Assembly (NCBI GenBank): GCA_913009315.1
Contig: CAJVZA010000020.1
Coordinates: 1-27,248 of the forward strand
Length of the DNA: 27,248 bases
Direction: 5' to 3'
DNA from: an uncultured Hippea sp.
GTDB taxonomy: Bacteria; Campylobacterota_A; Desulfurellia; JAADFJ01
Part shown: piece after piece, positions 9,959 through 23,627 of the stretch
Layout of the letters: each line of letters begins with the position of its first letter
How positions within the stretch are numbered: the first letter of the stretch is position 1
Notes under the pieces: generated by a model
Told to the model about the DNA's origin: nothing
Seen by the model: the letters and a program-made list of their open reading frames with translations, nothing else
The model's database searches: none
Position numbers and translations under genes: made by a program

Positions 9959-10827
9959 AAAGGCTTGCAGAATTTGTAGAAAAAGTGGTAACGGAATCTT
10001 TTAAAGATTCTATAGAAAAAATCGTGGAATGTAAATTCGATAAAATAGAAACAATGGATAAAACAGGCATTGATGAGCAAATATTTACACAGATCGAGAT
10101 TGAGTCCACCAAACCTGCAGGGACTTTTTTTATGCTATTGACAAAAAATATCGCTGAACTTCTCGTTGATGATAAGCTGACGAATGAATCTCTGGAAGAT
10201 CTTATGTTTCAGTTTTCGTTTGATTTTTCGGCACGTTATGATGAGGTGACAGAGTCTCAAATGGGATGGCAGGTTACTTCTTCGTCAATAGATGCAAAGC
10301 TTAATGATACCGTTTACAAAGGCGATTATATATTTATGAGCTATGATATTGGTGTCGGCAGTCAAAAAGGCAAATGGCTGTGGATTATGCCGGAACAGTA
10401 TGTATCTGAAATAGCAGAAAAGTTTTCCGATAATGTTCAGAACGACAATGCTGCCAAGCAGAATGATTCCAAAGCTGAAACCGGTGAGATTCATACTCTG
10501 GGCAACAGCGATGCGGTAAATATGGAACCCGCTGCCGCCCGAGAAATTTCTGTTAATCAGAACAATGTACGTAATCTTGATGTGCTTATGGATGTAAATC
10601 TGCATGTTGTTGTCCGTGTCGGAACAAAAAAGATGCTTTTAAAGGAGATACTCAAGCTTGTCCCGGGAAACAAAATTCTTTTTTCTCAAGATATAGATGA
10701 TCCGCTGGATGTTCTTGTGAATGGAAAAATTGTTGCAAAGGGCAAGGTCGTATCTGTAGATGGATTTTTTGGTATTAAAATTACCTCAATTGAATCCAAG
10801 TATTCAAGACTTAATAAATTGAAATAA
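9955..10827 (+). CDS. fliN: Flagellar motor switch protein FliN, long form
   Basis: The last 80 residues form a FliN SpoA domain, with LDVLMDVNLHVVVRVGTKKM, LKEILKLVPGNKI and DPLDVLVNGKIVAKGKVV. FliN forms the base of the C-ring and works with FliM and FliG in direction switching. At 290 residues it is about twice the length of enteric FliN. The first 165 residues form a globular domain that resembles the middle domain of FliM/FliY, and the linker (about 165-200) is polar. I do not see the ExxN phosphatase signature in the N-terminal part, so it is not clearly a FliY phosphatase. The start is TTG at 9955, supported by GGAGGAG a few bases upstream and by overlap with the fliM stop. Confidence 0.88.
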   Translation: MKRLAEFVEKVVTESFKDSIEKIVECKFDKIETMDKTGIDEQIFTQIEIESTKPAGTFFMLLTKNIAELLVDDKLTNESLEDLMFQFSFDFSARYDEVTESQMGWQVTSSSIDAKLNDTVYKGDYIFMSYDIGVGSQKGKWLWIMPEQYVSEIAEKFSDNVQNDNAAKQNDSKAETGEIHTLGNSDAVNMEPAAAREISVNQNNVRNLDVLMDVNLHVVVRVGTKKMLLKEILKLVPGNKILFSQDIDDPLDVLVNGKIVAKGKVVSVDGFFGIKITSIESKYSRLNKLK

Positions 10828-10834
10828 ATATCTG

Positions 10835-12931
10835 ATGTTATACAAGATGGGAAATCGCCTGTCTTTTGATTTTCCGTTTCAATTCACCAAATTACTTCGC
10901 ATCCAGCTCTTTTTTGCTATTGCTGTGCCGGTGCTGATGATTACTGCACTTACTGTATATTCGGCTGATATCGGTGAAGGGCAGGGGAAGCATCAGACCG
11001 GTGTTATTTCCGGATATGTCAATGTGAAGGGCGATTATAAAACTTATTCGGACATCAGTTCTTCATTTATGGATAAAAAGAATATCAGTAATTTAGTGCC
11101 CTGGTCGGTTTTAATAACCATACCCAATACCAAATTTAATATAGATATAGTTGCGCCAGGGCGTCTTAAACCTGATGGAAAATTGTTTTATGACGGACTC
11201 AAGCTCTACCACAGAAAAAACTATTTACGGTCTTTGTCTATATTTAAAAAAATTACAACGCTTTACCCGAAAAGCCTGTACTATCCTCCTGCCCTGATTT
11301 ATCTGTCCGAAACGTTGATCATGTTAAATCGTCCGGATGATGCAAGAACGATTTTAAACAAAGCTAAGGAATATCCTTCAAATGAAGAGATGCTGCCTTC
11401 AGCATTTTTTATGCTTGCAAAATCTTATGGTAAAAATAACGATAGTTTCGAAGAAGAGAGTGTCTTAAAGCTGATAACCGGTAATTTTCGTAATAGTCAT
11501 TTTGTAGCCCTTGCCAATATTATGCTTGGCAAATTGTATATAAATTACGAAAACTACAGGAAAGCCAGAATATATTTTAAGAATGCATCAAATTCACGGT
11601 ACGAGCTGTCATCTTTGATGGGCTACGGCACAAGTTACGCAAAAGAAAAAAATAACCTAAAGGCGAATTTGTATTTTACATCGGCATATTATTATACAAA
11701 AAAACATGAGATCAGTGTTGATAAATTTGTAAGCATAGCAGGAGAATATCTTCCGATTATGCTTGAAACATTTTGTACTCTGCGCGAATTTAATCTGACC
11801 GGAGGCTTGTTGAGTCGTCTCAAGAATAATCCTGAAGGTATTTATAGTCGTGCGACTTGTTTGAAAGAGCAGGGACGTTATAAAGCCGCATCAAAACTAT
11901 TCTACAAAGCGTATTCGACTGATCCAACATCGAGATTGGCAAGTTCTGCAAAACGAAGCGGGGCTATTTATAAAATTTTTGGAGGAATGGATCTTGCCGG
12001 AATAAAGAAGATAGAGTCTGAATACAAATATGACAATGAAGTATCTGAAATTGCCGCTATCAAAGAAGCTGAAATTCTTATAAAAAATAAAAAAGAATCT
12101 GAAGCGATGACTGCTCTATATAGATATAAAAAGCGAGGCGAGGCATATTCCATATGGGATGTCAAATTAAATCAGCTTGCAGTTCAGCTTGTTGATAAAT
12201 TGATGAAAAGATACAGGAGCGATCCTGAATCAATTGATGTGAAAAAATTGCTGCCGTTTATCGCCGTACTTGATAATCCTCTTGAAATAGCATCTTTACT
12301 GATGAGTGTAAACCGGTTTGATGACGCAAAAGCAATATTATATAAGACTGAAGCAGAACCTGCATATAGAGATCGTTCCATTGTAAGACTGGCCTATATT
12401 GCATTGAAAAGAAACAAGTTCAAACAGGCGGAAGCGTTGATTAATTCCGTTAAAAGATCATACACAAAGAGTGATGCCGTTTATTGGAATGTTTTGGGCG
12501 ATATTGCTTTTCAAAATGGAAAATACAGCAAAACTATAAACTATTACAAAAAAGCGTCGAAACTTAATTTATCCGGCAGCGCAAGAACTAATCTTGCATA
12601 TTCCTATTATAGTGTCGGGGATTTCAAAAAGGTGACCGAAATTTTGGGAACAGGAAAACTTTCACCGATCGATTACAGAATTCTTGGCGATACGGCTTTT
12701 AAACTTGCGAGATACAATGAAGCTGTTAGTTACTTTTACAGGGCTGAAAATGATAATGAGTCTAATTTATATTTCGCAAAATCTCTCTATAAAATCAAAA
12801 AGGTTGGCGATGCTGTAAAAATCTTAAAAAGGCTTGCATTGGGTGGGGGAACCGTAAAGATACTTGCTGAGAGCGAGCTTGCCATCATTAAATCTGAGAA
12901 AACCGTAAAGGCTGCCGAAAATTTGAAATAG
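10835..12931 (+). CDS. Large exported TPR-repeat protein
   Basis: This 698-residue protein has a basic N-terminus, a hydrophobic stretch at about residues 25-43 (LFFAIAVPVLMITALTVYSA) and a likely signal cleavage after YSA. The mature part starts with a short non-repeat region (about 45-120). It then consists mostly of helical TPR-like units, for example YHRKNYLRSLSIFKKITTLYP, NYENYRKARIYFKNA, FQNGKYSKTINYYKKASKLN and LARYNEAVSYFYRAEND. No catalytic motif is seen, and the protein is probably a periplasmic scaffold. It starts 7 bases after fliN and precedes cheX, so it may serve motility or flagellar assembly (inference). ATG at 10835 or 10847 could start it; neither has a good ribosome site. 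Confidence 0.75.
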   Translation: MLYKMGNRLSFDFPFQFTKLLRIQLFFAIAVPVLMITALTVYSADIGEGQGKHQTGVISGYVNVKGDYKTYSDISSSFMDKKNISNLVPWSVLITIPNTKFNIDIVAPGRLKPDGKLFYDGLKLYHRKNYLRSLSIFKKITTLYPKSLYYPPALIYLSETLIMLNRPDDARTILNKAKEYPSNEEMLPSAFFMLAKSYGKNNDSFEEESVLKLITGNFRNSHFVALANIMLGKLYINYENYRKARIYFKNASNSRYELSSLMGYGTSYAKEKNNLKANLYFTSAYYYTKKHEISVDKFVSIAGEYLPIMLETFCTLREFNLTGGLLSRLKNNPEGIYSRATCLKEQGRYKAASKLFYKAYSTDPTSRLASSAKRSGAIYKIFGGMDLAGIKKIESEYKYDNEVSEIAAIKEAEILIKNKKESEAMTALYRYKKRGEAYSIWDVKLNQLAVQLVDKLMKRYRSDPESIDVKKLLPFIAVLDNPLEIASLLMSVNRFDDAKAILYKTEAEPAYRDRSIVRLAYIALKRNKFKQAEALINSVKRSYTKSDAVYWNVLGDIAFQNGKYSKTINYYKKASKLNLSGSARTNLAYSYYSVGDFKKVTEILGTGKLSPIDYRILGDTAFKLARYNEAVSYFYRAENDNESNLYFAKSLYKIKKVGDAVKILKRLALGGGTVKILAESELAIIKSEKTVKAAENLK

Positions 12932-13065
12932 AGAAAATAAGGTAAAAAATTACGCATATGAAAAAACAAAGACAACTTAAATCTGATAAATGATATTGAA
13001 TTTATATGAACATTCTGTAATATGGTATTATTCTATCACTATACTAAACCGACGTGGAGGAGCGA

Positions 13066-13596
13066 ATGGAAAATGTAGGCGGCAACTCAAAGCAGGGAAA
13101 CAGGCGAGTGCCTCTTGATGTCAGACTGATAAATCCGTTTATTTCCGGCACGAAAGAGGTTTTCGAAGTCATGGCAGGAATACCTGTGAAACGCAAGTCT
13201 CTTTCTCTGAAAAAAGATTATAAAATGTTTGGTGAGATTTCAGGTATTATGGGGCTGACCGGCGATGCAGTAGGTTCTATAATCATAAGTTTTCCAAAAA
13301 AACTGGCAGACGATGTAGTATCTAAATTTCTCGGTATTGAAGATGGTGAAAATATAAATGAAGATGATATGAGGGACGGCGTTGGAGAGATTCTCAACAT
13401 GATTACGGGCAAAGCAAAAACTTTGCTTGCCAGCACAGAATATTATTTCAAGCTTTCGATACCAACCGTTATCATGGGGCAGAATTATGAAATATCTCAC
13501 TCAAAGGACACTCCTTGTATTGTTGTAATATTTGAAGCAATTAATTTGCAATTTATCCTGCAGGTATCTTTGTCACCTCACAAAAAACAGGAGTAA
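13066..13596 (+). CDS. cheX: Chemotaxis phosphatase CheX
   Basis: CheX dephosphorylates CheY-P and resets the motor signal. The ATG at 13066 is chosen because GGAGGAG lies just upstream; a GTG at 13054 is in frame but contains the ribosome site itself. The protein has 176 residues, close to the family length of about 155-180. The catalytic signature E-x-x-N is seen in DGVGEILNMITGKAK, about residues 107-121, the helix that inserts into the CheY active site. The N-terminal part carries the beta strands used for dimerisation (GLTGDAVGSIIISF). It lies 4 bases before cheY, its expected partner. A TTGAAT at 12996-13001 is a possible -35, but the -10 is not convincing. Confidence 0.9.
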   Translation: MENVGGNSKQGNRRVPLDVRLINPFISGTKEVFEVMAGIPVKRKSLSLKKDYKMFGEISGIMGLTGDAVGSIIISFPKKLADDVVSKFLGIEDGENINEDDMRDGVGEILNMITGKAKTLLASTEYYFKLSIPTVIMGQNYEISHSKDTPCIVVIFEAINLQFILQVSLSPHKKQE

Positions 13597-13600
13597 TATT

Positions 13601-13981
13601 GTGGAAATAAGTGATATCAAGGTTCTAATTGTAGATGATTCCTCTACAATGAGAAGAATTATTGGTAAAATACTCAAAAGCATGGATATAACAGAAATTC
13701 TTCAGGCTGCCGATGGTGTTGATGCTATAAGTCTTCTGTCCGATACATCGGTTGATCTTATATTGGCAGATTGGAATATGCCGCGGATGAATGGTTTGCG
13801 AATGGTCAAGAAATTAAGAGAAAAGAGAAAAACCGCTTCCGTACCTATAATTATGGTTACGACGGAAGCCGAGCGATCCAGCGTAGTTGAAGCAATAAAG
13901 GCAGGCGCAAATAACTATCTGGCAAAACCGTTTACTCCCGATGCATTAACTACAAAAATAAAGGAAACGCTTCATTTGTAG
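13601..13981 (+). CDS. cheY: Single-domain response regulator CheY
   Basis: CheY carries the chemotaxis signal to FliM. The GTG at 13601 is the start, with AGGAG 7 bases upstream, giving 126 residues, the standard CheY size. The acidic pair is in VLIVDDSSTMRR, the phospho-acceptor Asp in ILADWNMPRMNG, the switch Thr in MVTTEAE, and the conserved Lys in LAKPFT. No output domain is present. The pairing with cheX and the FliM CheY-binding segment in the same run gives a complete signal-to-switch module, without a kinase (CheA) in view. No rho-independent terminator is obvious after it. Confidence 0.95.
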   Translation: MEISDIKVLIVDDSSTMRRIIGKILKSMDITEILQAADGVDAISLLSDTSVDLILADWNMPRMNGLRMVKKLREKRKTASVPIIMVTTEAERSSVVEAIKAGANNYLAKPFTPDALTTKIKETLHL

Positions 13982-14305
13982 AGCTGATATTTATTCTAAA
14001 AGCGGCGGCAGGATTTTCAGCACTTCCATATCTCAGGTTCGATAGTTTTTTTATCTATAGATTTGCTTAAGAGACCGCTTTATGAGGTTTCCCATATACT
14101 TGCGTTTTGTTTCTTTGAATTAACCCGTTAGTTCTTCAGAAGTTTGCCTTGTCTATAGAAAACCTCATGAAAAGCTGTAAATTTGTTTATTGTGCAGTGG
14201 TCTCATTGTGCAGCAGTCTCTTTAAGCGAGAATGTTCTCAACCGAGTGCCCTTAATCAATGGATTCGAAAAGATGCTTTTCGCAAAAGCACAATTTGGAG
14301 CGCTG
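13982..14305. other. Convergent intergenic region, 324 bases
   Basis: cheY and the M20 peptidase gene converge here. Bases 14071-14206 are a repeat copy. Beyond it lie two mutually exclusive hairpins: CGAAAAG/CTTTTCG (14266-14282) and TGCTTTT/AAAAGCA (14274-14290). They sit downstream of the peptidase gene on the minus strand, but no T-run follows, so a terminator role is only possible. No gene is supported. Confidence 0.5.
14071..14206 (-). repeat. Dispersed palindromic intergenic element, copy 3
   Basis: This is the clearest full-length copy, about 136 bases. It begins GAGACC and ends GGTCTC, so its tips are inverted repeats. Inside, ATGAGGTTT (14084-14092) and AAACCTCAT (14160-14168) form a second inverted pair. 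The centre, GAATTAACCCGTTAGTTC (14117-14134), is nearly palindromic. The whole element matches 2111-2243 in the opposite orientation. Confidence 0.75.
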
Positions 14306-15490
14306 CTATATCTGTTTTGTATTACCGGGAGCGGACAGATACCTCCAAGATGATAATATGGAAGATGCGAGCAGAGCTGTCCTTTCCCTAAAACTTGATT
14401 TCATCATATACTCTCTTTTACTGTGATCGTCATCACCTATAGGCCCCATTCCATCAACAACTGCAGTTTTCATTTTAGATATAAAATTTGCATCCGAAAC
14501 ACCATAACGATATTCTTCTGTGACTTTAATATGAAGTTTGTCGGATTCTTTTTTAATCAAATCAAAAAGCTGTCTGTTTTTTTTGTTCTGTTCCATCGGA
14601 GGGCGAAAAGAAAAGAATTTATATTTTGTCTTTGTTCCCTGAGTATTTGAGTGATTGCATATATTCTCTATCTTTTCTATTGTATCATTTTCTTCTTTCT
14701 CGGTAGCAAATCTTATATCAACGGAAGCAGCCGCATATTCCGGAACCGTATTGGGACCTACTCCACCCTTAACCGTTCCTACATTTACAGTCACACCGTC
14801 TTCAAAGTTATTCAAAGATTCAAGCGATATAATCTTGTCGGCCATTTCTAATATAGCGCTCGGTTTGCTGCCTTTAATGAACGCAGCATGCGAAGCCTTG
14901 CCCTCTACCTCAATGTTTGCACTTATTTTACCTTTTCTGCCTGTTACTATATCACCATTCAATCCTCCGCATTCGAGAACGTACGCAAATGAGCTTTTTT
15001 TCGCAACATCCATTATAATTTGCTTAGAAGAAGGCGAACCTATCTCCTCATCAGAGTTAAAAACAAAAATTATCGGAATATCATTCAAAACGCCAAGCTT
15101 TTTGAGGATTCTTAATGCAAAAATTCCCACAACAAGACCGCCCTTCATATCTATTACCCCCGGACCATAAATGAAATCTTTATCTTCTCTGCAGCTGTTG
15201 AATCCGAGTGTTTCCGGAAATACGGTATCCGTATGTCCGCAAAGCATTATTGGTTTAAAACCGGTATTATTGTTCTTATAAAAAACGAGATTGTTTCCCA
15301 GGTTATCGTTTTCATGAATTTCGACAGTAAAATCAAGCCGCTCCATCTGATCTTTTACCGTATCTCCCACCAGATCAACACCTTTTTTGTTGTATGTATA
15401 GCTGTTAATCAGTACCATTTTTTTTAGGAGGGCGAGCATTTCCTGCTCGTCCTCCTCTATCAGTTTCAAAATTTTATCTGTTATGTTCAC
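14306..15490 (-). CDS. M20-family metallopeptidase / amidohydrolase
   Basis: M20 enzymes hydrolyse amide bonds of peptides or N-acyl amino acids with two zinc ions. The GTG at 15490 is chosen because it overlaps the TGA of the preceding gene (GTGA), giving 394 residues, a normal M20 length. Zinc and catalytic residues are visible: H86 and D88 in CGHTDTV, bridging D114 in GVIDMKGG, base E148 and ligand E149 in NSDEEIG, E173 in LECGG, and a C-terminal His in DDDHSKREY. A dimerisation (lid) domain starts near GRKGKISANIEVEGKASHA. It most resembles the glutamate carboxypeptidase / ArgE-DapE branch, and the substrate is not determinable. As the last gene of the GntR operon it may cleave, or trim, the product of the ATP-grasp ligase (inference). 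Confidence 0.88.
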   Translation of the reverse strand: MNITDKILKLIEEDEQEMLALLKKMVLINSYTYNKKGVDLVGDTVKDQMERLDFTVEIHENDNLGNNLVFYKNNNTGFKPIMLCGHTDTVFPETLGFNSCREDKDFIYGPGVIDMKGGLVVGIFALRILKKLGVLNDIPIIFVFNSDEEIGSPSSKQIIMDVAKKSSFAYVLECGGLNGDIVTGRKGKISANIEVEGKASHAAFIKGSKPSAILEMADKIISLESLNNFEDGVTVNVGTVKGGVGPNTVPEYAAASVDIRFATEKEENDTIEKIENICNHSNTQGTKTKYKFFSFRPPMEQNKKNRQLFDLIKKESDKLHIKVTEEYRYGVSDANFISKMKTAVVDGMGPIGDDDHSKREYMMKSSFRERTALLASSILSSWRYLSAPGNTKQI

Positions 15491-17067
15491 TCTTTGAATT
15501 TCCGGAATGAAAACCTGTTTTCGTTGTATACTTTTGGATCTGCATCTGGATATGATACTTCGGCGCCGCTCCACGGTTTTCTCAATATTATGCTGCCGTT
15601 TTCTTTTCTCGCAACATTGCTTCTGTGCAGAGGTATTTTGCCTCCCGCCGCCGCTATATATCTTGGTATGGCATCACCTGAAATATTACCATACATGCTT
15701 TCAACAATATCTCTTCCAACTTCCACTGGAACCCGCAAATGAGAGAATTGAGGATTTCTGAAGCTGCAGTTAAATAAATAATAAGGTCTTACATATGCTT
15801 CCTGCATAGTTTCGCACAATTTCCACATTTTATATTTAGTATCGTTTATGCCTTTAAGTAAAACAGCTTGATTTAAAATGGCACTCACCCGTTTTGATAT
15901 CATTTTGAATGCTTTTTTTGATACAGGTGTTATTTCCTGGGCGGTGTTAATCTGGACAACCACTCTTAGCGGTTTTTTATCATTGCTTTCAGCTAATATA
16001 TCGAGCAGCTCAGGATCTATTCTCTGAGGTGTGGTTATAGGAATTCGCGTGCCGAGCCGTTTCATTTTTACATGTTCTATGCTATCAAGCTCATTTAGAA
16101 TCCATTTGACATATTTGTTCGGTAAAACAAAAGCATCGCCTCCGGTAATTAAAACATCTCTTATGTTTGGATTGCTTCTGATATAGTTTAAAGCATCTTC
16201 GTAAGCTTCTTTTGAATAGATTTTATCCATTTTGCCTATATGTGCTATTCTTAGGCAGTGCGTACAGTACATCGCGCATATATTGGTGACTTTCATGGCC
16301 GCTACCTGCGGATAAAATTGATCAATTAATCTTGCCGGAGAATGGTCTGCGGCGACAGGAGGTATTTCTACGCCTACGTTGTCTACCATTTCACCGGTAG
16401 GAACGGATTGCTGCAAAACAGGATCATCCGGTTTTCCCGGTATTATCAAACTTGCATAATACGGAGTAAGTCTCATTCTATAATTTTTAGTTACCCTGGT
16501 AACATCCTCAATGGCTTTTTTTGGAAGAGCTATAACTTTCGATAGAGTATCGACATCCTCAATGGCATACCTCAATTGCCCGGAATAGCTATTCCATTCC
16601 TCATCGCTAATACCCATTATTTCTTTTATTCTTGCTGCATTCTGCTGAATCTGGTCCCACAATTCTATTCCGCTTGGCGCTGCCTTTTTTTTATCGGCAA
16701 GATAATCTCTAACACGCTCATTCGCCTGTTTTACAATGTTAAGCGCTTTGCCCACTCTTCCGCCTATGGTAACATAATGTTCATCTATATCTTGATGTTT
16801 TATGGCAAGCGTGATCAGTTTTTTCCTGTTGATGCCGAAATCATTTGGCGATATTCCTTTATTATTTCTCAAATCAAGCAGCTTGCGGAACAAATCAACA
16901 ATCGGTGTTGTTCTTTTGTTGTCTTCCGAATTCTTCAACAAGCCGATAATTTTATTTTTGTCTTTTTCTGCAGCATTTCGCTTGACTTTCGTATCCTTAA
17001 AAAGGAAATCCAAAAGTTCATTTGTTTCACTGTCAATTTCTGATCCATTGACACTCATATTATCCAT
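15487..17067 (-). CDS. KamA-type radical-SAM aminomutase, substrate unknown
   Basis: This radical-SAM enzyme of the lysine 2,3-aminomutase family has 526 residues, longer than usual (about 415-440), because about 140 extra, mostly helical residues precede the core. The 4Fe-4S motif is C264-x3-C268-x2-C271 (NICAMYCTHCLR). R273 matches the Arg that holds the substrate carboxylate, ITGGDA the SAM-contacting loop, and K477 (AAAGGKIPL) the PLP lysine. Clostridial KamA holds the lysine side chain with two Asp: one in CDLSLG, the other just before GGGGK. Here the positions read CSFRNP (S435) and IAAAGGK, so both seem lost. It therefore probably shifts the amino group of another amino acid. The ATG at 17067 is 7 bases after GGAGG; a TTG at 17070 is less likely. 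Confidence 0.9.
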   Translation of the reverse strand: MDNMSVNGSEIDSETNELLDFLFKDTKVKRNAAEKDKNKIIGLLKNSEDNKRTTPIVDLFRKLLDLRNNKGISPNDFGINRKKLITLAIKHQDIDEHYVTIGGRVGKALNIVKQANERVRDYLADKKKAAPSGIELWDQIQQNAARIKEIMGISDEEWNSYSGQLRYAIEDVDTLSKVIALPKKAIEDVTRVTKNYRMRLTPYYASLIIPGKPDDPVLQQSVPTGEMVDNVGVEIPPVAADHSPARLIDQFYPQVAAMKVTNICAMYCTHCLRIAHIGKMDKIYSKEAYEDALNYIRSNPNIRDVLITGGDAFVLPNKYVKWILNELDSIEHVKMKRLGTRIPITTPQRIDPELLDILAESNDKKPLRVVVQINTAQEITPVSKKAFKMISKRVSAILNQAVLLKGINDTKYKMWKLCETMQEAYVRPYYLFNCSFRNPQFSHLRVPVEVGRDIVESMYGNISGDAIPRYIAAAGGKIPLHRSNVARKENGSIILRKPWSGAEVSYPDADPKVYNENRFSFRKFKE

Positions 17068-18436
17068 CAATATACCTCCAGAGAGTTTTTTTACCTAATT
17101 CTATACCTTCCGATGCATCTTCTCTGTTTTTGGCAACAGATACGACTCTTCCCAGAAACCCTTCTTTTTTTATTGTAAGATTGCCGCCCGGATATTCCAA
17201 TATCATATATCCTTTACCGATTTCCCGATTCGCCACATTCGCAAATAGCTTTCTTTCATCTGTTTCTGGTATCAAACATTCCTTTGTGGTTACATCTTCC
17301 TTAAGCTTGAAATTGTATGTAGACCAGCACACTTTGTCGGAATTATCATCTAATTCCATTGCATTCTCAGGCAGGATATCTTTTAAAACTGCATAATATT
17401 CTATTTCCGGTATGCTCGCAGAACCTTTTGGTAAAGATTGTTCCATAGTACAGCAAAATTCCATTGTGGTGCCCTGTTTTCTTGCATTTACCTCTATAAA
17501 ATAGATATCTTCGTTTTCATCTACTATAAAATCACAGCCGAATATACCTCGATATCCTCTTTCAGCCAAAACTCTTCCAACAATTCTTGTGTATTCTTTT
17601 AATTTCCCCTTAAGTTTGCTATTTAGAATTGAAGGGTATGTTGAACCTGTAAACTTGTTGCCCTCTTCAATCCTTTGATCCGCAATACCTGCAATATAAA
17701 TATCAGACTTATTGGCAACTACACCCAAAACTGTAGGATCATATTGATGCGGTATATATCTTGTTATCAGATATTGCTTATGTTCATCTTTAAATTCTTT
17801 AAGAATGTCATCAAGTGAATATGTTATTGCACTGTTCATTCCGGCAGCACTATAGCTTAAACTTACAAAAATTCCGTCTTTCCATTTTTTTCTCAGTTTC
17901 TCTGTTGAATCTATCAATTCATCCAAACCGCTGCATATTCGAAAATCTGCAAGCGGTACAATTCCGTTAAGCAGAGTATATTGCAATACCTTGTTGTTTA
18001 TTTCATTGGCAATAGTACTTTTAGGTCCCAAAAGCTGAACGCCATCTATAGAATCAAGAGTCATTTCCGGATTACTTTCATGCATATAAACAAAGAGATT
18101 ACCCTGATTTTTCACGATTTTCTTTATAATTTCGACTATATATTTGCTGTCAGACACAGAACGGACAAATTGGTCCGATTTGATTCTCGATGCAACAAGT
18201 TTGTTGTCGTTTTCGAGAATTTTTTTCGAGGGTGAATTTACAACAATAATATTTTCATAGTTATATTGCTTCATTACATCAGGTACGACAGCAACAATTC
18301 CGACATCTCTTTTAAATTTCTTTGCAAAAAAGTCTTTAAGAAAAAGATTCATGCCATAGGACTTCAGCTCGCCGATATAAAAAAAATAATATCTGTTTCT
18401 ATCCAAATTGATGTTTGAAAAGAGGATATCTTTCAT
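17060..18436 (-). CDS. ATP-grasp ligase, probably amino-acid or peptide forming
   Basis: This 458-residue ATP-grasp protein carries an N-terminal pre-ATP-grasp domain (about 1-130). The nucleotide-binding part includes LITRYIPHQYDPTVLGVV, and the metal-binding strand has D302 (CDFIVDENED), E315 and N317 (FIEVNARKQGTT), the hallmark acidic-Asn set. A C-terminal domain (about 385-458) resembles the closing domain of carboxylase-like ligases (EGFLGRVVSVAKNREDA). The family activates a carboxylate as acyl-phosphate and joins it to an amine. I do not recognise a named subfamily. It starts at the gntR stop (TAATG) and overlaps the KamA-like gene by 8 bases, so the ligase and mutase are made together. 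A mutase followed by a ligase recalls the PylB/PylC order, but the sequences do not identify it as such. Confidence 0.8.
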   Translation of the reverse strand: MKDILFSNINLDRNRYYFFYIGELKSYGMNLFLKDFFAKKFKRDVGIVAVVPDVMKQYNYENIIVVNSPSKKILENDNKLVASRIKSDQFVRSVSDSKYIVEIIKKIVKNQGNLFVYMHESNPEMTLDSIDGVQLLGPKSTIANEINNKVLQYTLLNGIVPLADFRICSGLDELIDSTEKLRKKWKDGIFVSLSYSAAGMNSAITYSLDDILKEFKDEHKQYLITRYIPHQYDPTVLGVVANKSDIYIAGIADQRIEEGNKFTGSTYPSILNSKLKGKLKEYTRIVGRVLAERGYRGIFGCDFIVDENEDIYFIEVNARKQGTTMEFCCTMEQSLPKGSASIPEIEYYAVLKDILPENAMELDDNSDKVCWSTYNFKLKEDVTTKECLIPETDERKLFANVANREIGKGYMILEYPGGNLTIKKEGFLGRVVSVAKNREDASEGIELGKKTLWRYIDG

Positions 18437-19092
18437 TATTTGCTTTCCGTTTCTTTTAAATTCGCTATTTTTGTGCCGGTTTCATAATAATGATTTCTAA
18501 TGCATGCCTCTACTTGTTCTGCATTCCCGGATTTTAATGCATCTACTATAATTTTATGCCTCTCTCCTATTTCAGACGGAGAGTAAAGCATTGCAAGATA
18601 TTTAAAAAACATCAGATGTGATTTTATGCTTAATTTTTTTGTAAAACCAACCAACTGTTTGTTGCCGCTTCTTGAAAATATCATTTCATGAAATTTGTCA
18701 CCCAAATCTATCAACTTTATATGCTTGCCGCTTGATGCAAGCTCTTCCATATTTTCTGTCATTTTATAAAGCCGATTTATTCCATAAACGGAGAAATTAT
18801 CAATTGCATCCCTTGCTGCATATCCCTCTAAAACACCTCTTGTTATATATGAGTCAACAATATCCTTTGGTGATAAATTCATTACAAAGTTCCCTACTCT
18901 TGGACGATATTCTATTATTCCGTTACTTATCAGCTCTCTAAGAGCTTCTCTGATGGGAGCTCTGCTGATACCGAGTTTGATAGCCAGTCGATTTTCTTTG
19001 ATTTGATCGCCCGGTTTAAGTTCTCCTTTTAAAAGACAGTTGTATATAAATGATATTACCTGTTCTTCATATGTTGTTTTTGAAATAATCAT
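18436..19092 (-). CDS. GntR-family regulator, FCD (FadR) subfamily
   Basis: This 218-residue regulator has an N-terminal winged helix (about 8-70), with GELKPGDQIKENRLAIKLGI, SRAPIREALRELISNGIIE and a YRPRVGNFV wing. An all-helical FCD effector domain follows, with His-containing metal or ligand sites in KFHEMIFS, ERHKIIV and RNHYYETG. The ATG at 19092 is preceded by AGGAGG with a 7-base spacer; a longer reading frame up to 19110 lacks a ribosome site. FCD regulators sense small carboxylates or amino acids and usually repress transport and catabolism. An ATTGTCGACAAT palindrome overlies its own start site (19130-19141) and recurs at the TAXI promoter. This points to autorepression and control of uptake (inference). 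Confidence 0.92.
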   Translation of the reverse strand: MIISKTTYEEQVISFIYNCLLKGELKPGDQIKENRLAIKLGISRAPIREALRELISNGIIEYRPRVGNFVMNLSPKDIVDSYITRGVLEGYAARDAIDNFSVYGINRLYKMTENMEELASSGKHIKLIDLGDKFHEMIFSRSGNKQLVGFTKKLSIKSHLMFFKYLAMLYSPSEIGERHKIIVDALKSGNAEQVEACIRNHYYETGTKIANLKETESK

Positions 19093-19120
19093 CTCTGATC
19101 CTCCTATCATTCATTTTCAG

Positions 19121-19169
19121 TATCTGCCGATTGTCGACAATACACTAACACGAAAGGATAAAAAGTCAA
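19121..19169 (-). promoter_or_regulatory. gntR promoter with GntR operator
   Basis: Read on the minus strand: TTGACT (19169-19164), a 16-base spacer, TAGTGT (19147-19142), then the perfect palindrome ATTGTCGACAAT (19141-19130). The operator abuts the -10 and covers the predicted start near 19135. The 19 bases at 19121-19139 are identical to 23162-23180 upstream of the TAXI gene. TTGTC..GACAA half-sites resemble known FCD-type operators. Confidence 0.7.
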
Positions 19170-19199
19170 ACGCTTTCTGATATAATTTCCGATAAAATA

Positions 19200-19228
19200 T
19201 TGACAATACGGCTTGCGAGAAGTATATT
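19200..19228 (+). promoter_or_regulatory. uspA promoter
   Basis: TTGACA (19200-19205), a 17-base spacer and TATATT (19223-19228) give a near-consensus sigma70 promoter. Transcription would start near 19235, leaving about 27 bases of leader that contain GGAGGG. It fires away from gntR and has no ATTGTCGACAAT site. Confidence 0.65.
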
Positions 19229-19261
19229 TGATGCCAAATAATTACGGAGGGAAAAACAAAA

Positions 19262-19732
19262 ATGTACAAAAATATTCTTGTAATGACCGATTTCTCTGAA
19301 GATTCGAACTATGCCGCACAAGTAGCTTGTGAAATGGCAAAAAAATTCGAAGCAAATTTATATATCCTGCATGTTGCACATATATCCGGCGATTTTACCA
19401 TCCTGCTTGATGAGCACGAATATGAAGATATAAAACGGCGCGTAGACGAATCGATAAAAAAAGAGCTGTCAGAAATGATAAAAAATGTTCCCTGCCTTAA
19501 AGATATCAAATACAAGCATATAGTCAGAAGAGGAATACCTTATGAAGAAGGTTTGAAAGAGGTAAAAAGCGGAAAATATGATCTTCTGGTTGTCGGATCT
19601 CATGGCAAATCGAATGTTACAACATTCTTTTATGGAAGCACAACAGCTAAGCTGACGCGAAGATCTCCTATAAGTGTGCATATGACGCGCCTTAAAAAGA
19701 GACAGGATCATATTGCTGCGGCGAATAAATAG
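19262..19732 (+). CDS. Universal stress protein, UspA family
   Basis: This 156-residue single-domain Usp is cytoplasmic. The N-terminus MYKNILVMTDFSEDSNYAAQ has the usual strand and acidic turn. The ATP-binding signature G-2x-G-9x-G-(S/T) is seen as VVGSHGKSNVTTFFYGSTTAKL, about residues 109-131, so it probably belongs to the nucleotide-binding branch. GGAGGG lies 8 bases before the ATG at 19262. It is divergent from gntR and convergent with the TRAP permease gene, separated from it by a terminator. Usp proteins often sit beside TRAP transporter genes, and some bind TRAP subunits; whether this one does is unknown. Confidence 0.92.
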   Translation: MYKNILVMTDFSEDSNYAAQVACEMAKKFEANLYILHVAHISGDFTILLDEHEYEDIKRRVDESIKKELSEMIKNVPCLKDIKYKHIVRRGIPYEEGLKEVKSGKYDLLVVGSHGKSNVTTFFYGSTTAKLTRRSPISVHMTRLKKRQDHIAAANK

Positions 19733-19890
19733 TTGACTTATCCGGCACAGACAATCCCGGGATGTCAGCGGCTGCTTTATTGCCAATTACTTGCTTCGAA
19801 AGCCGCACAAGTTGTTTGCACGACTTGTATCGGGTTTGCATTTGAGCACTTATTGTTTTTTATGCCTGATTATCATACCGAAAAACAGTT

Positions 19891-19938
19891 AAAAAAGCTT
19901 AATTATTTTGTCAACTGTGTCAATAATTAAGCTTTTTT
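19891..19938. terminator. Bidirectional rho-independent terminator
   Basis: A 17-base perfect stem, AAAAAAGCTTAATTATT (19891-19907) with its complement at 19922-19938, encloses a 14-base loop. The T-rich arm ends the stem in either direction. It separates convergent uspA and the TRAP permease gene and can stop both. Confidence 0.85.
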
Positions 19939-19956
19939 AAATTGTCTTTAGATTTA

Positions 19957-22005
19957 TTAATTCACAGCTGCAGCAACTCTTATCCTGAATTTCTGCCCAA
20001 GATATAATGTTCCCAGCACTGCAAGTCCGATCAGATACATAAAGTATTTAAAATGAACGGGAACGTGAAAGAAATCTATCAAGCTGGCCGGATTAAACAA
20101 AATCAGAGAGGCTAAAAGGAAGAACGGTATTTCATACCATCTGTTTTTTGTTATAAACCACCCCTGAAGTGCACTTGCAAAAGCAAATGCTCCAAGCACT
20201 GCCATAGAAAATATCATCAATATCTTCGGAAAACTTGAGACATGATACAGTATCAGGTCCGGATTAAAAACAAACATAAACGGCAGAATAGCCGTTCTCA
20301 TATCATATATAAATCCCTGAACAGCCGTAGGTATAGGATCGGTATCGGCAAGTGCCGCGGCAGCATAAGCCGCCAAACCGACAGGTGGAGTATCGTCTGC
20401 AATAATACCAAAATAAAAAACAAAAAGATGCGCCGCCATAAGAGGTACAAAGAAACCGTAGTTGTGAGCCAGTGTGACAATTACAGGAGCCGTTAGTGAC
20501 GCCATAACAACATAGTTTGCGGTTGTGGGCAGACCCATTCCAAGCAATAAACTTGCCACTGCAGTAATAATTAAAAGAAGGTATATGTTGCCGCCGGAAA
20601 GTATAGCAACAAGTTCCGTAATCATACTCCCTATGCCCGTTGCAACAAGTCCCACAACAATGCCGGCTGATGCACAAGCCAAAGCAACAATAACCATATT
20701 TCGTGATCCGGCAACAAATGCTTCTATCGTTATATTTATCGATGACGTTATGGCATCAATAAAGCTTACATTTCCACTTTTAATTTTCCTCAATTCTTGA
20801 TAAAGTATGGTCACCATAAGCAGCAATATCGTTCTAAAAGCTGCCATTGCCGGCGAATGTCTAAGAACGACAAGCTCTATAATAAGCCACCCTATCGGTA
20901 TCAGATAATGCCATCCGTTCTTTAAAACTTTCCTGATGTTAGGTAAGTCTTCTTTAGCTATACCCTTAAGTCCGAGCTTACTCGCTTCAAGATGTGCAAC
21001 AAAAAACAACGCAAAATATGCAACAAACGCCGGTATTGCAGCGGCTTTCACAACCGCCAAATAGGGCACGTTTACATACTCCGCTATAATGAATGCGGCT
21101 GCACCCATAATCGGAGGCATGAGTTGACCGTTGATACTTGCCGCAACTTCAGTAGCGGCAGCTTTTTTTGCAGGATATCCGGTTTTTATCATAAGCGGTA
21201 TTGTGAAAGTTCCCGTTGTCACAACATTTGCAACACTCGATCCCGAAACAAGTCCGGTTAAACCGCTTGCAACAACAGCGGCCTTTGCAGGTCCGCCCTT
21301 GTATTTACCCAAACCGGCCAGAGCAATATCTATAAAAAATTTCCCCGCACCGGCTTTGTCAAGCATGGCTCCAAGTAAAACAAACAGATAAACTATACTT
21401 GTTGAAACTCCCAAAGGAATACCGAAAATGCCTTCAGTTGACAAAGACAGCTGACTTACATACTTATCAAGCGTAACGCCTTTATACGCTATAACCTCGG
21501 GAAGATGCTGTCCTAAAAACCCATAAAGTGTGAACAAAATAGCGACAGCCGGAAGAGCCGGACCTATAGCTCTCCTCGTAGCTTCCAAAACCACCAAAAT
21601 CACAAGTAGTCCAAAGATCAGATCCATGCTGCTTGGGGAGCCCATTCTCATAGATATACCGATCCACTCTATCATTATATAGAGAGCGGCGGCAACTCCA
21701 ATCACAGCTAAAATATAATCTATAAGCGGTATACCTTTTTTTTGAGAGAGAGGTGAAAAATATTTTATATGGTGTTTTTTTAAAAACGGAACACTCAAAA
21801 AAATAAGGGATACTGCAAAGGCAAGATGTATGGCTCTTGAAAAAGTACTGTCAAGTGTCCAAAAACTTGCTATTGAAAGCTGAAAAATAGCCCATAAAAC
21901 CGCTATAACGGTGTAAAGCGTTTTTTCTGCTTTGTTAAAAACTCTTATATTGCCGGTTTCTTCTTTTAAAAGATCTTCTAACTCCTTGTTTTTGTTTTCC
22001 GCCAT
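19957..22005 (-). CDS. TRAP transporter permease, fused DctQM type (TAXI)
   Basis: This 682-residue inner-membrane protein has many hydrophobic segments. A charged cytoplasmic start (about 1-22) leads to small-subunit-like helices in the first 150 residues. The large DctM-like part then has GLVSGSSVANVVTTGTFTIP, INGQLMPPIMGAAAF, LLLGMGLPTTANYVVMASL and IADDTPPVGLAAYAAAALAD, the signature stretches of fused TRAP permeases. TAXI-type TRAP systems import organic or amino acids such as glutamate-like substrates with a sodium gradient. The ATG at 22005 is preceded by AAGGGG. It lies 75 bases after the TAXI gene, with a GC-rich hairpin between. The 3' end reaches the shared terminator. Confidence 0.95.
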   Translation of the reverse strand: MAENKNKELEDLLKEETGNIRVFNKAEKTLYTVIAVLWAIFQLSIASFWTLDSTFSRAIHLAFAVSLIFLSVPFLKKHHIKYFSPLSQKKGIPLIDYILAVIGVAAALYIMIEWIGISMRMGSPSSMDLIFGLLVILVVLEATRRAIGPALPAVAILFTLYGFLGQHLPEVIAYKGVTLDKYVSQLSLSTEGIFGIPLGVSTSIVYLFVLLGAMLDKAGAGKFFIDIALAGLGKYKGGPAKAAVVASGLTGLVSGSSVANVVTTGTFTIPLMIKTGYPAKKAAATEVAASINGQLMPPIMGAAAFIIAEYVNVPYLAVVKAAAIPAFVAYFALFFVAHLEASKLGLKGIAKEDLPNIRKVLKNGWHYLIPIGWLIIELVVLRHSPAMAAFRTILLLMVTILYQELRKIKSGNVSFIDAITSSINITIEAFVAGSRNMVIVALACASAGIVVGLVATGIGSMITELVAILSGGNIYLLLIITAVASLLLGMGLPTTANYVVMASLTAPVIVTLAHNYGFFVPLMAAHLFVFYFGIIADDTPPVGLAAYAAAALADTDPIPTAVQGFIYDMRTAILPFMFVFNPDLILYHVSSFPKILMIFSMAVLGAFAFASALQGWFITKNRWYEIPFFLLASLILFNPASLIDFFHVPVHFKYFMYLIGLAVLGTLYLGQKFRIRVAAAVN

Positions 22006-22037
22006 CCGCAGCCCCTTCTATAAAGCATTAATAAAAT

Positions 22038-22059
22038 GGGCGGCACATAAGCGCCGCCC
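22038..22059 (-). promoter_or_regulatory. Intercistronic GC-rich hairpin
   Basis: GGGCGGC (22038-22044) and GCCGCCC (22053-22059) form a 7-base all-GC stem with an 8-base loop in an otherwise AT-rich gap. No T-run follows on the minus strand. It is more likely to protect the upstream TAXI message from 3' decay, or to lower permease expression, than to end transcription completely. Confidence 0.55.
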
Positions 22060-22080
22060 GGAAACGAAAATTATCTAAAT

Positions 22081-23076
22081 TTACTTGATCAGACTTTTAG
22101 GTATATACTTAATCAACCCGGATTCTCTGTAATATCTTAGTGCTCCTTTGTGAACTGGGGCAGACATGCCTTCAAGCATGTTTTTCTTTGTTAAAACGGC
22201 GAACGCAGGATGAAGTTTTTTGAATTTTGAAAGATTTTCAAATACCTCTTTTGTAATAGCATAGACGATGTTTGCCGGTTCTTTCTTGCTTGTTACCAAA
22301 GTAGCCTTAACACCTACGGTCTCTATATTTTTTGTATTAACTGCCATAGGATAAAATTTTCTCAAAATTTCCGCTTTTGCGTAATATGGATGATTCTTTA
22401 AAAGCTTAACAACATTAGGACCGACTATAGAAACAATTCTTACCTTGATTCTTCCGGATGTAGCTTCTTTTATGTTTCCATTTGGATGGCCTACTGTATA
22501 GAAGAATGCGTCAATTCTTCCGTCCTGTAAAAGCATTGGCGCTTCGACAGCCTTAACATATTCAGGATGTATATCCTTCAATGAGATTCCGAATGCCTTT
22601 AAAACATCCTTTGAATTCTGCAGTTGTCCCGAACCCGGATTTCCAATATTTACCCTTTTGCCTGCCAGATCCGACACACTCTTGATGCCGCTGTTAACGG
22701 AAGCTATTAATGTTATGGACTCAGGATGAATCGTGAAGACACTTCTTAGATTCTTTTGAGGACCTTTATTTTTCCACTCGGCCAAACCATGAACGGCTTC
22801 GTATTGTCTATCAGACTGACAAATACCGAAATCAAGATCTCCATGCAATACTGAGTTAATGTTGTAAACGGACCCTGCTGTGGATTCAACAGTGGCCTTG
22901 ATCCCATACTCTGCAAATTTTTCGTTAACCATTTTTGAAATTGCACCACCGGTTGGATAATAAACTCCGGTAATGCCGCCGGTTCCAATAGTAACAAATA
23001 TTCTTTTGCCATAACTCAAAGAAACCAAGGTCAGCAAGAATACTGCTACCATAAATAATGTCTTTCCCCTACGCAT
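22081..23076 (-). CDS. TAXI-family TRAP solute-binding protein
   Basis: This 331-residue periplasmic binding protein has a classic signal peptide: MRRGK, a hydrophobic core at about 7-20, and probable cleavage after SYG near residue 23. The mature start, IFVTIGTGGITGVYYPTGGA, is diagnostic of the TAXI family. Further blocks include ESTAGSVYNINSVLHGDLDFGI, SVSDLAGKRVNIGNPGSG and DGRIDAFFYTVGHPNG. It captures a small organic or amino acid and hands it to the fused permease encoded next. TAGGAGG lies 6 bases before the ATG. It is the first gene of the operon, with a leader of about 100 bases. The promoter carries the same palindrome as the gntR promoter. Confidence 0.95.
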   Translation of the reverse strand: MRRGKTLFMVAVFLLTLVSLSYGKRIFVTIGTGGITGVYYPTGGAISKMVNEKFAEYGIKATVESTAGSVYNINSVLHGDLDFGICQSDRQYEAVHGLAEWKNKGPQKNLRSVFTIHPESITLIASVNSGIKSVSDLAGKRVNIGNPGSGQLQNSKDVLKAFGISLKDIHPEYVKAVEAPMLLQDGRIDAFFYTVGHPNGNIKEATSGRIKVRIVSIVGPNVVKLLKNHPYYAKAEILRKFYPMAVNTKNIETVGVKATLVTSKKEPANIVYAITKEVFENLSKFKKLHPAFAVLTKKNMLEGMSAPVHKGALRYYRESGLIKYIPKSLIK

Positions 23077-23161
23077 AAAAACCTCCTAATAAATTTTTAA
23101 GTATATTCAATCAATTACCCCCTATCCTTTTTTGGTGATAGATCCACTGCAGAGCTCCTCA

Positions 23162-23210
23162 TATCTGCCGATTGTCGACAGTATATTAACATAGAAGAAT
23201 ATAAAGTCAA
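23162..23210 (-). promoter_or_regulatory. TRAP-TAXI promoter with GntR-type operator
   Basis: Read on the minus strand: TTGACT (23210-23205), a 16-base spacer, TAATAT (23188-23183), then ACTGTCGACAAT (23182-23171), one base off the perfect palindrome at gntR. The order and spacing are the same as at 19121-19169, and 19 bases (23162-23180) are identical. The operator sits on the start site, as expected for repression. Confidence 0.72.
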
Positions 23211-23316
23211 GTATTTTTCAATGCAATTTTTGATAAAAAGGAGAAGCAAAAAAATTGTTGCCGATCGCAAAGTTATCAGTAAAGAAAGAGAGGGTCTGTT
23301 TGCAGGCGGGTCTCTT
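23211..23316. other. Unassigned spacer next to repeat block
   Basis: Nothing convincing is seen here. A short frame starting at 23221 runs into the repeat block and has no ribosome site. The whole 23077-23688 interval is gene-free: the TAXI leader and promoter (23077-23210), this spacer, the repeat block (23317-23627) and about 60 bases before the xseA stop. Confidence 0.5.
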
Positions 23317-23627
23317 CAGGTTGTTAAAAAATGTTATTGCGAGCGCAGCGCGGCAATCCCAGCTTCTTCAGTGTATCACAGACATCCTGCCTGTGGTGAG
23401 ATTGCGAGCTCAGCAAAGCTCTAATGAGACTGCCGCGGCCTTCGGCCTCGCAGTGACAAAAGAGAGAAGGTCATTGCCATGGACATTTTCCCCTCGGTCA
23501 TTGCCATGGACATTTTCCCCTCGGTCATTGCGAGGAGCGAAGCGACGAAGCAATCTCAGAAAATACCGGTAATAAAGGAATTGCCACGCACTTTTCGGCG
23601 TTCGCAATGATATTTTTCAACAGCCTG
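23317..23627. repeat. Composite palindromic repeat block with terminal inverted repeats
   Basis: The ends, 23317-23341 and 23603-23627, are inverted copies that agree at 21 of 25 positions (CAGG-T/C-TGTT at the tip, ATTGCG at the inner edge). Inside are several ATTGCGAG units, including GCGAGGAGCGAAGCGACGAA (23528-23547). GCAATCTC and GCAATCCC appear as inverted partners, and GCCGCGGCCTTCGGCCTCGC forms a hairpin. A 27-base unit is repeated exactly at 23469-23495 and 23496-23522, with a third partial start. GC content is visibly higher than in the flanks. CATTGCGAG-type repeats are known as dispersed non-coding elements in many bacteria and often produce false ORFs. Confidence 0.75.
23469..23522. 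repeat. 27-base tandem duplication
   Basis: There are two exact copies (23469-23495, 23496-23522), followed by the first 9 bases of a third that continues into the CATTGCGAG unit. Each copy begins GGTCATTGCCATGG and ends TTTTCCCCTC. The perfect identity suggests recent slippage. Confidence 0.9.

Follow-up and report, generated by a model that had tools for sequence, protein, structure and literature searches.

A conserved operon with a GntR regulator, a predicted glutamate-type aminomutase and an ATP-grasp ligase: a candidate route to a beta-glutamate conjugate in marine and soda-lake anaerobes

What is made, and to what end, by an operon that joins a KamA-type aminomutase, an ATP-grasp carboxylate-amine ligase and an M20 metallohydrolase under a GntR regulator, with an importer close by? 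The question is raised by the window analyzed here (the whole stretch of 27,248 nucleotides, from an uncultured Hippea sp.). The original prediction saw in it one system that imports an amino acid, converts it to a beta-amino acid and joins this into a peptide or conjugate, with the peptidase for recycling, and left the choice between an osmolyte and a catabolic route undecided.

All the genes named in that prediction are present and intact, as a check of the sequence and the open reading frames of the window confirms. The features are the following:

14306-15490, minus strand: M20 metallohydrolase gene, carboxypeptidase G2-like, 394 aa (GTG start at 15490; PF01546/PF07687)
15487-17067, minus strand: long KamA-type radical SAM/PLP aminomutase gene, 526 aa (ATG at 17067 after GGAGG; TIGR00238)
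17060-18436, minus strand: ATP-grasp carboxylate-amine ligase gene, 458 aa (PF02655)
18436-19092, minus strand: GntR-FCD regulator gene (ATG at 19092; PF00392 and PF07729)
19121-19139, minus strand: operator TGTCGACAATCGGCAGATA at the promoter of the four genes above, directly after a TTGACT-type promoter
19262-19732, plus strand: universal stress protein gene, between the operon and the TAXI-TRAP unit (PF00582)
19957-22005, minus strand: fused TRAP membrane permease gene (TIGR02123, 629 bits)
22081-23076, minus strand: TAXI solute-binding protein gene, predicted to bind L-glutamate (TIGR02122)
23162-23180, minus strand: identical copy of operator TGTCGACAATCGGCAGATA at the TAXI-TRAP promoter, directly after a TTGACT-type promoter

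Starts of the operon genes were refined using Shine-Dalgarno sequences and gene overlap. From regulator to hydrolase, adjacent genes overlap by 1, 8 and 4 bases, the last being the overlap of the M20 GTG start with the stop of the mutase gene, and the head-to-tail arrangement proposed for the minus strand between 19092 and 14306 is indeed a single overlapping operon. The TRAP permease and TAXI genes lie upstream on the same strand, with the plus-strand universal stress protein gene separating both units; such genes are recurrent beside related loci elsewhere (e.g. L042, L112 and L145). At positions 842-2071 the window also encodes a 409-aa protein whose single chain has two N-terminal domains of the TetR type, and the intergenic stretch at 23310-23620, upstream of the TAXI promoter, holds a repeated palindromic sequence of the gcgag/gcaatc type that resembles a dispersed repeat.

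The two units have an operator sequence in common. The 19-mer is identical at both promoters, while shuffling the upstream regions 1000 times never gave more than 14 shared bases, so the suspected common operator holds up. Its core is an inverted repeat, TGTCGA-N3-TCG(A/G)CA. In relatives with an annotated GntR gene, the start of that gene is preceded by this palindrome at a distance of 24-55 nt (L042, L051, L053, L054, L084, L086, L087, L090, L097, L109, L115 and L118), and in L116 it is found near the start of the cluster. The 1.74 Mb genome contains the pattern TGTCGANNNTCGRCA at three places, of which the third is inside a coding ORF, a count that is not significant alone since the reversed control pattern occurs twice in the same genome; the evidence for the operator is its identity, position and conservation, not the genome count. 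A GntR regulon reaching beyond the two promoters was rejected, as one of these three exact matches is intragenic. The regulator contains the HTH domain PF00392 and the FCD domain PF07729, both above gathering, and its predicted target sequence is TGTCGACAATCGRCA. Placement of the operator after the promoter suggests repression, and the GntR-FCD protein is probably an autorepressor of the operon and a repressor of the importer too, which would keep both promoters closed by binding the inverted repeat until an internal ligand releases it.

The importer gives a first hint at the substrate. The TAXI protein (317.6 bits to TIGR02122) has as its closest solved relative VcGluP (8S4J, E 1.6e-87), which binds L-glutamate specifically (PMC11574862). 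Both go with a fused permease, 102 of 204 aligned positions are identical, and so are 10 of the 13 contacts or water ligands named for VcGluP, including the critical Y45 and Q93 (PMC11574862). Unlike VcGluP, the window protein has Gln for D157, Gly for S40 and Thr for M201, the last as in a Thermus glutamate-binding protein. Y45, S75, Q93 and E125 are kept in 25 of 27 aligned TAXI proteins, the other two being divergent. With its TAXI family score, the key residues Y45 and Q93, and S75 and E125, the window importer belongs to the VcGluP type; the substrate is a prediction here, and glutamate is very probably what is taken up.

The operon is widely conserved. Scanned with the KamA protein, 84,980 species genomes yielded at least 80 loci with a long KamA, and it was on this ground that an isolated lateral peculiarity of a single genome was rejected. 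The hosts are mostly Desulfobacterota, along with Spirochaetota, SAR324 and others; isolates include Desulfopila aestuarii, Desulfosediminicola flagellatus, Desulfofustis glycolicus, Desulfamplus magnetovallimortis, Desulfothermus okinawensis and Dethiosulfatarculus sandiegensis, and many of the MAGs are Desulfonatronospira, Desulfonatronovibrio or Desulfonatronum. These lineages are marine, estuarine or soda-lake organisms. Among the 80 loci listed, and where the contig is long enough for the neighbor to be tested, the gene immediately upstream of the long KamA encodes the ATP-grasp protein in 60 of 71 and the one immediately downstream the M20 protein in 57 of 73; a TAXI gene is within reach in 18 of the 33 long-flank loci listed. 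Some loci have no M20 gene, and some no TAXI gene nearby. The co-occurrence that the original prediction proposed to look for is far above chance, and the genes do stand together in relatives. A same-genus relative carries a mutase end that is 94% identical at a contig edge, with the M20 gene behind it.

Several loci show peculiarities of their own. Near a contig start of the same-genus genome G020 (L148:194-1379), the M20 gene is apparently split into two frames, by a frameshift or an assembly error. Three soda-lake loci of Desulfonatronovibrio/Desulfonatronospira (L057, L079 and L095) have a second, very divergent KamA-like gene with Arg at the LAM-293 position, placed divergently beside the operon, and at L049:4176-6629 the long KamA is followed by a glutamine-synthetase-like gene and then a short KamA (Glu at LAM-293), which might concern beta-glutamine.

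The mutase is a member of the KamA family (TIGR00238, 242.7 bits against a cut-off of 199.2) with a helical N-terminal extension of about 110-150 aa. Its CxxxCxxC motif (C265/C269/C272), the PLP lysine K478 (527-aa numbering) and the equivalent of R134 of lysine 2,3-aminomutase (LAM) are invariant in the long-KamA family; indeed, many residues are invariant in both the mutase and the ligase families. Glutamate 2,3-aminomutase (EAM, TIGR04368) is the best-scoring NCBIfam equivalog, at 347 bits below its cut-off of 650, and the model for lysine 2,3-aminomutase (TIGR03820) is missed as well (288 against 525). Identity as an arginine aminomutase was rejected, its model scoring lower. In LAM, the epsilon-amino group of lysine is bound by Asp293 and Asp330. 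These positions hold Ser and Ala/Thr in the long KamA, with new Arg residues in the same segments, and lysine was rejected as the substrate because both lysine-binding aspartates are absent. The LAM-293 position is Lys in EAM-like enzymes and Ser in long KamA; C. difficile EAM reportedly has Lys332 and Asn369. In the tree, the long KamA clade is sister to the EAM-like enzymes (support 99/94), on a long stem branch of 2.34. The predicted model of the long KamA (pLDDT 76, moderate) was left out of the pocket claims. Taken together, these features let us predict with good confidence that the long KamA acts as a glutamate 2,3-aminomutase giving beta-glutamate, and it would define a new aminomutase subfamily.

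A natural exchange of enzymes points the same way. In the class of G131 and G267, 11 of the 12 genomes have the ligase, and in nine an EAM-like mutase sits between ligase and M20 gene, preceded by TAXI-TRAP wherever the contig extends far enough; the two genomes whose long KamA lies elsewhere share this locus but lack EAM in it. The EAM-like enzymes that were read carry Lys at LAM-293, and those scored reach 576-587 bits to TIGR04368, again below 650. As judged from these loci, EAM-like mutase and long KamA are natural substitutes for each other, which supports a conversion of glutamate to beta-glutamate.

The product of the ligase is harder to name. The family, with a conserved motif FxExNARKQGTT, finds by profile its best solved match in BesA (8yi6, E 6e-9), an L-propargylglycine-L-glutamate ligase; weaker matches include PGM1 and another peptide ligase, and BesA, PGM1 and 8ynd, which are among the closest relatives by profile, are natural-product enzymes. 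Although BesA is the closest solved relative by profile, the window ligase is a distant one, scoring 29.5 bits against the cut-off of 750 for the BesA-type model NF042917. Its predicted model (pLDDT 92) has an ATP-grasp fold, with a Z of 24.3 to BesA; naming the ligase by structure was rejected, for the best Z scores belong to the generic ATP-grasp enzymes PurK, PurT, GAR synthetase and biotin carboxylase, and a fold matching so many enzymes names no substrate. A single-sequence ligase scan of genome contigs returned no match, as patterns drawn from a single divergent sequence match too narrowly, whereas the mutase scan worked. The EAM-carrying G243 has a D-Ala-D-Ala-ligase-like ATP-grasp in place of this ligase, L094 has two tandem copies of such an enzyme fused to an M20 domain (12778-14922 and 14980-17172), and L146 has an unfused one (10237-11349) beside an EAM-like mutase. 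A ligase of changing descent that is repeatedly paired with M20 supports the idea of an amide that the ligase forms and the hydrolase cleaves. The operon also defines an ATP-grasp ligase with a putative amide product. At L184 (G238:C18), a ligase relative occurs with a glutathione-synthetase-like protein, a glutathionylspermidine-synthase-like ATP-grasp, a GNAT and a peptide ABC transporter, possibly a separate peptide pathway.

The M20 protein (PF01546 and PF07687 above gathering) has carboxypeptidase G2 (CPG2) as its nearest solved relative, keeps in the CPG2 alignment the metal and catalytic motifs, which are also conserved, and scores in the glutamate carboxypeptidase group of models, although it falls short of NF004788 (225 bits against 349). 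Carboxypeptidase G2 releases a C-terminal glutamate. Loci without the ligase reveal a second architecture. Gamma-glutamyltranspeptidase (GGT) is found in 7 of 15 ligase-less loci (L060, L062, L076, L085, L094, L099 and L107) and in none of the 65 with ligase among the 80 listed, a difference whose Fisher p of 2e-6 overstates the case since related sequences are not independent. These loci have the long KamA and usually M20, most have M20 and/or an oligopeptide ABC transporter, and some have a sigma-54-type regulator; the set looks like a scavenger version. The presence of a gamma-glutamyl hydrolase only in loci that lack the ligase fits a peptide of the gamma-glutamyl-beta-glutamate type, made by some and scavenged by others. 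We infer such a peptide as the weakest step of our reading.

Four lines thus converge on glutamate as, very probably, the amino acid of the system: the TAXI contacts, the mutase with its pocket, model score and tree, the substitution by EAM, and the CPG2-like hydrolase. The beta-amino acid would then be beta-glutamate. L-Glutamate would enter through the TAXI-TRAP transporter, the long KamA would move its amino group from C2 to C3, and the ATP-grasp enzyme would spend ATP on an amide between the beta-amino acid and another carboxylate. For the latter, glutamate is the favored candidate, which might yield a dipeptide of the gamma-glutamyl-beta-glutamate type. The carboxypeptidase-G2-like M20 enzyme could split the amide and return the parts once the pool is no longer needed. 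We regard this chemistry, in which glutamate becomes beta-glutamate and enters an amide formed at the cost of ATP and reopened by M20, as rather likely. Against it stand the TIGR04368 scores below 650 of both the window mutase and the EAM-like enzymes, the Ser at LAM-293, the loci that have no M20 gene or no TAXI gene nearby, and a ligase whose readable sequence features point to no substrates.

Other readings divide the same evidence differently. The mutase might act on a glutamyl conjugate instead of free glutamate: the ligase would first make gamma-glutamyl-X, KamA would convert its free alpha-amino group to the beta form, and M20 would open the product. The gene order (ligase, mutase, hydrolase), the long stem branch (2.34) and additional N-terminal domain of the long KamA, its distal pocket with the small Ser and Ala/Thr instead of Lys, and the resemblance of the ligase to BesA would all suit this. 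We nonetheless consider it unlikely, as EAM-like enzymes, expected to work on free glutamate, exchange with the long KamA in the same place of the operon, and the mutase is kept in loci without ligase. Alternatively, imported glutamyl peptides or glutamate could be degraded, with KamA working from beta to alpha and the ligase as a reserve-forming side branch. Such a catabolic or scavenging route, improbable in our judgment, draws on the ligase-less loci with GGT, M20 and often a dipeptide ABC importer, and on GntR-FCD regulators, which often govern catabolism. It sits poorly with a ligase that consumes ATP and is encoded immediately upstream in 60 of the 71 loci listed and testable, and the locus neighborhoods examined share no conserved CoA transferase, lyase or aminotransferase by which beta-glutamate could be broken down. 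The kinship of the ligase with BesA, PGM1 and 8ynd finally invites the thought of a secreted specialized metabolite, such as a dipeptide antimicrobial or metal ligand. This seems very unlikely, given that the neighborhoods hold no conserved exporter or self-resistance gene, while a hydrolase partner is common, a glutamate importer is present, and the spread is wide across one guild.

For the favored beta-glutamate amide, the most likely role would be that of a compatible solute in saline anoxic habitats, with a reserve as the other candidate. The solute role is in our view quite possible, somewhat short of probable. It is suggested by the host habitats, by the metabolic inertness of beta-amino acids (PMC1224877), which suits them to such a role, and by the connection that eam and ablA have in other bacteria with Na+ riboswitches and with osmoprotection (PMC9337991). 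On the other hand, a search of 23 sources (the window and 22 loci) revealed no osmotic riboswitch, which argues against it, as does the type of regulator. GntR-FCD proteins more typically exert metabolite-responsive than osmotic control. Beta-Glutamate (beta-aminoglutarate) has reportedly been known for decades to be among the major free amino acids in anoxic marine pore water. Sulfate reducers of such sediments, with their conserved operon and its glutamate-type aminomutase, offer a testable bacterial source of beta-glutamate, and the proposed dipeptide pathway, if true, would be a source of the pore-water compound. The two architectures suggest that one metabolite passes from species that make it to others that scavenge it. 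Only tentatively do we put forward the widest claim, a widespread, unreported pathway of marine and soda-lake anaerobes for a beta-glutamate dipeptide compatible solute, with a scavenger version (GGT, M20, mutase, often a peptide importer) in their neighbors.

How new is the system? A pathway with this gene set was not found in the open-access literature, and neither was a description of the gene combination, the long mutase subfamily, the ligase or the importer-regulator unit; within that literature, no characterized pathway matches. N-Acetylglutaminylglutamine amide (NAGGN) is likewise a glutamate-derived dipeptide solute, and its locus includes an ATP-grasp enzyme and a peptidase. However, NAGGN is not known to involve an aminomutase, whereas the window operon lacks an acetyltransferase and an asparagine-synthase-like amidotransferase. 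The AblA/AblB route to N-epsilon-acetyl-beta-lysine follows the same logic, a KamA-family 2,3-aminomutase and then an N-capping enzyme yielding an inert beta-amino acid derivative, but the window system has a glutamate-type mutase, an ATP-grasp amide ligase instead of an acetyltransferase, and a dedicated importer, hydrolase and GntR regulator. EAM is the best-scoring equivalog, the sister clade and the enzyme exchanged with long KamA in the same operon type, from which the latter differs by its score below the cut-off, Ser for Lys at LAM-293 and the long helical N-terminal extension. Methanogens accumulate the same beta-amino acid as predicted here in their beta-glutamate/beta-glutamine osmolytes, yet NMR evidence spoke against a glutamate aminomutase route to it (PMC1224877), whereas the window system is centered on a mutase, with an ATP-grasp ligase as its neighbor. 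Of the original interpretation, the one regulated unit of importer, beta-amino-acid-capable aminomutase, carboxylate-amine ligase and amidohydrolase stands and is sharpened to glutamate, but not the wholly new kind of system; it is best called a variant of beta-amino-acid solute chemistry.
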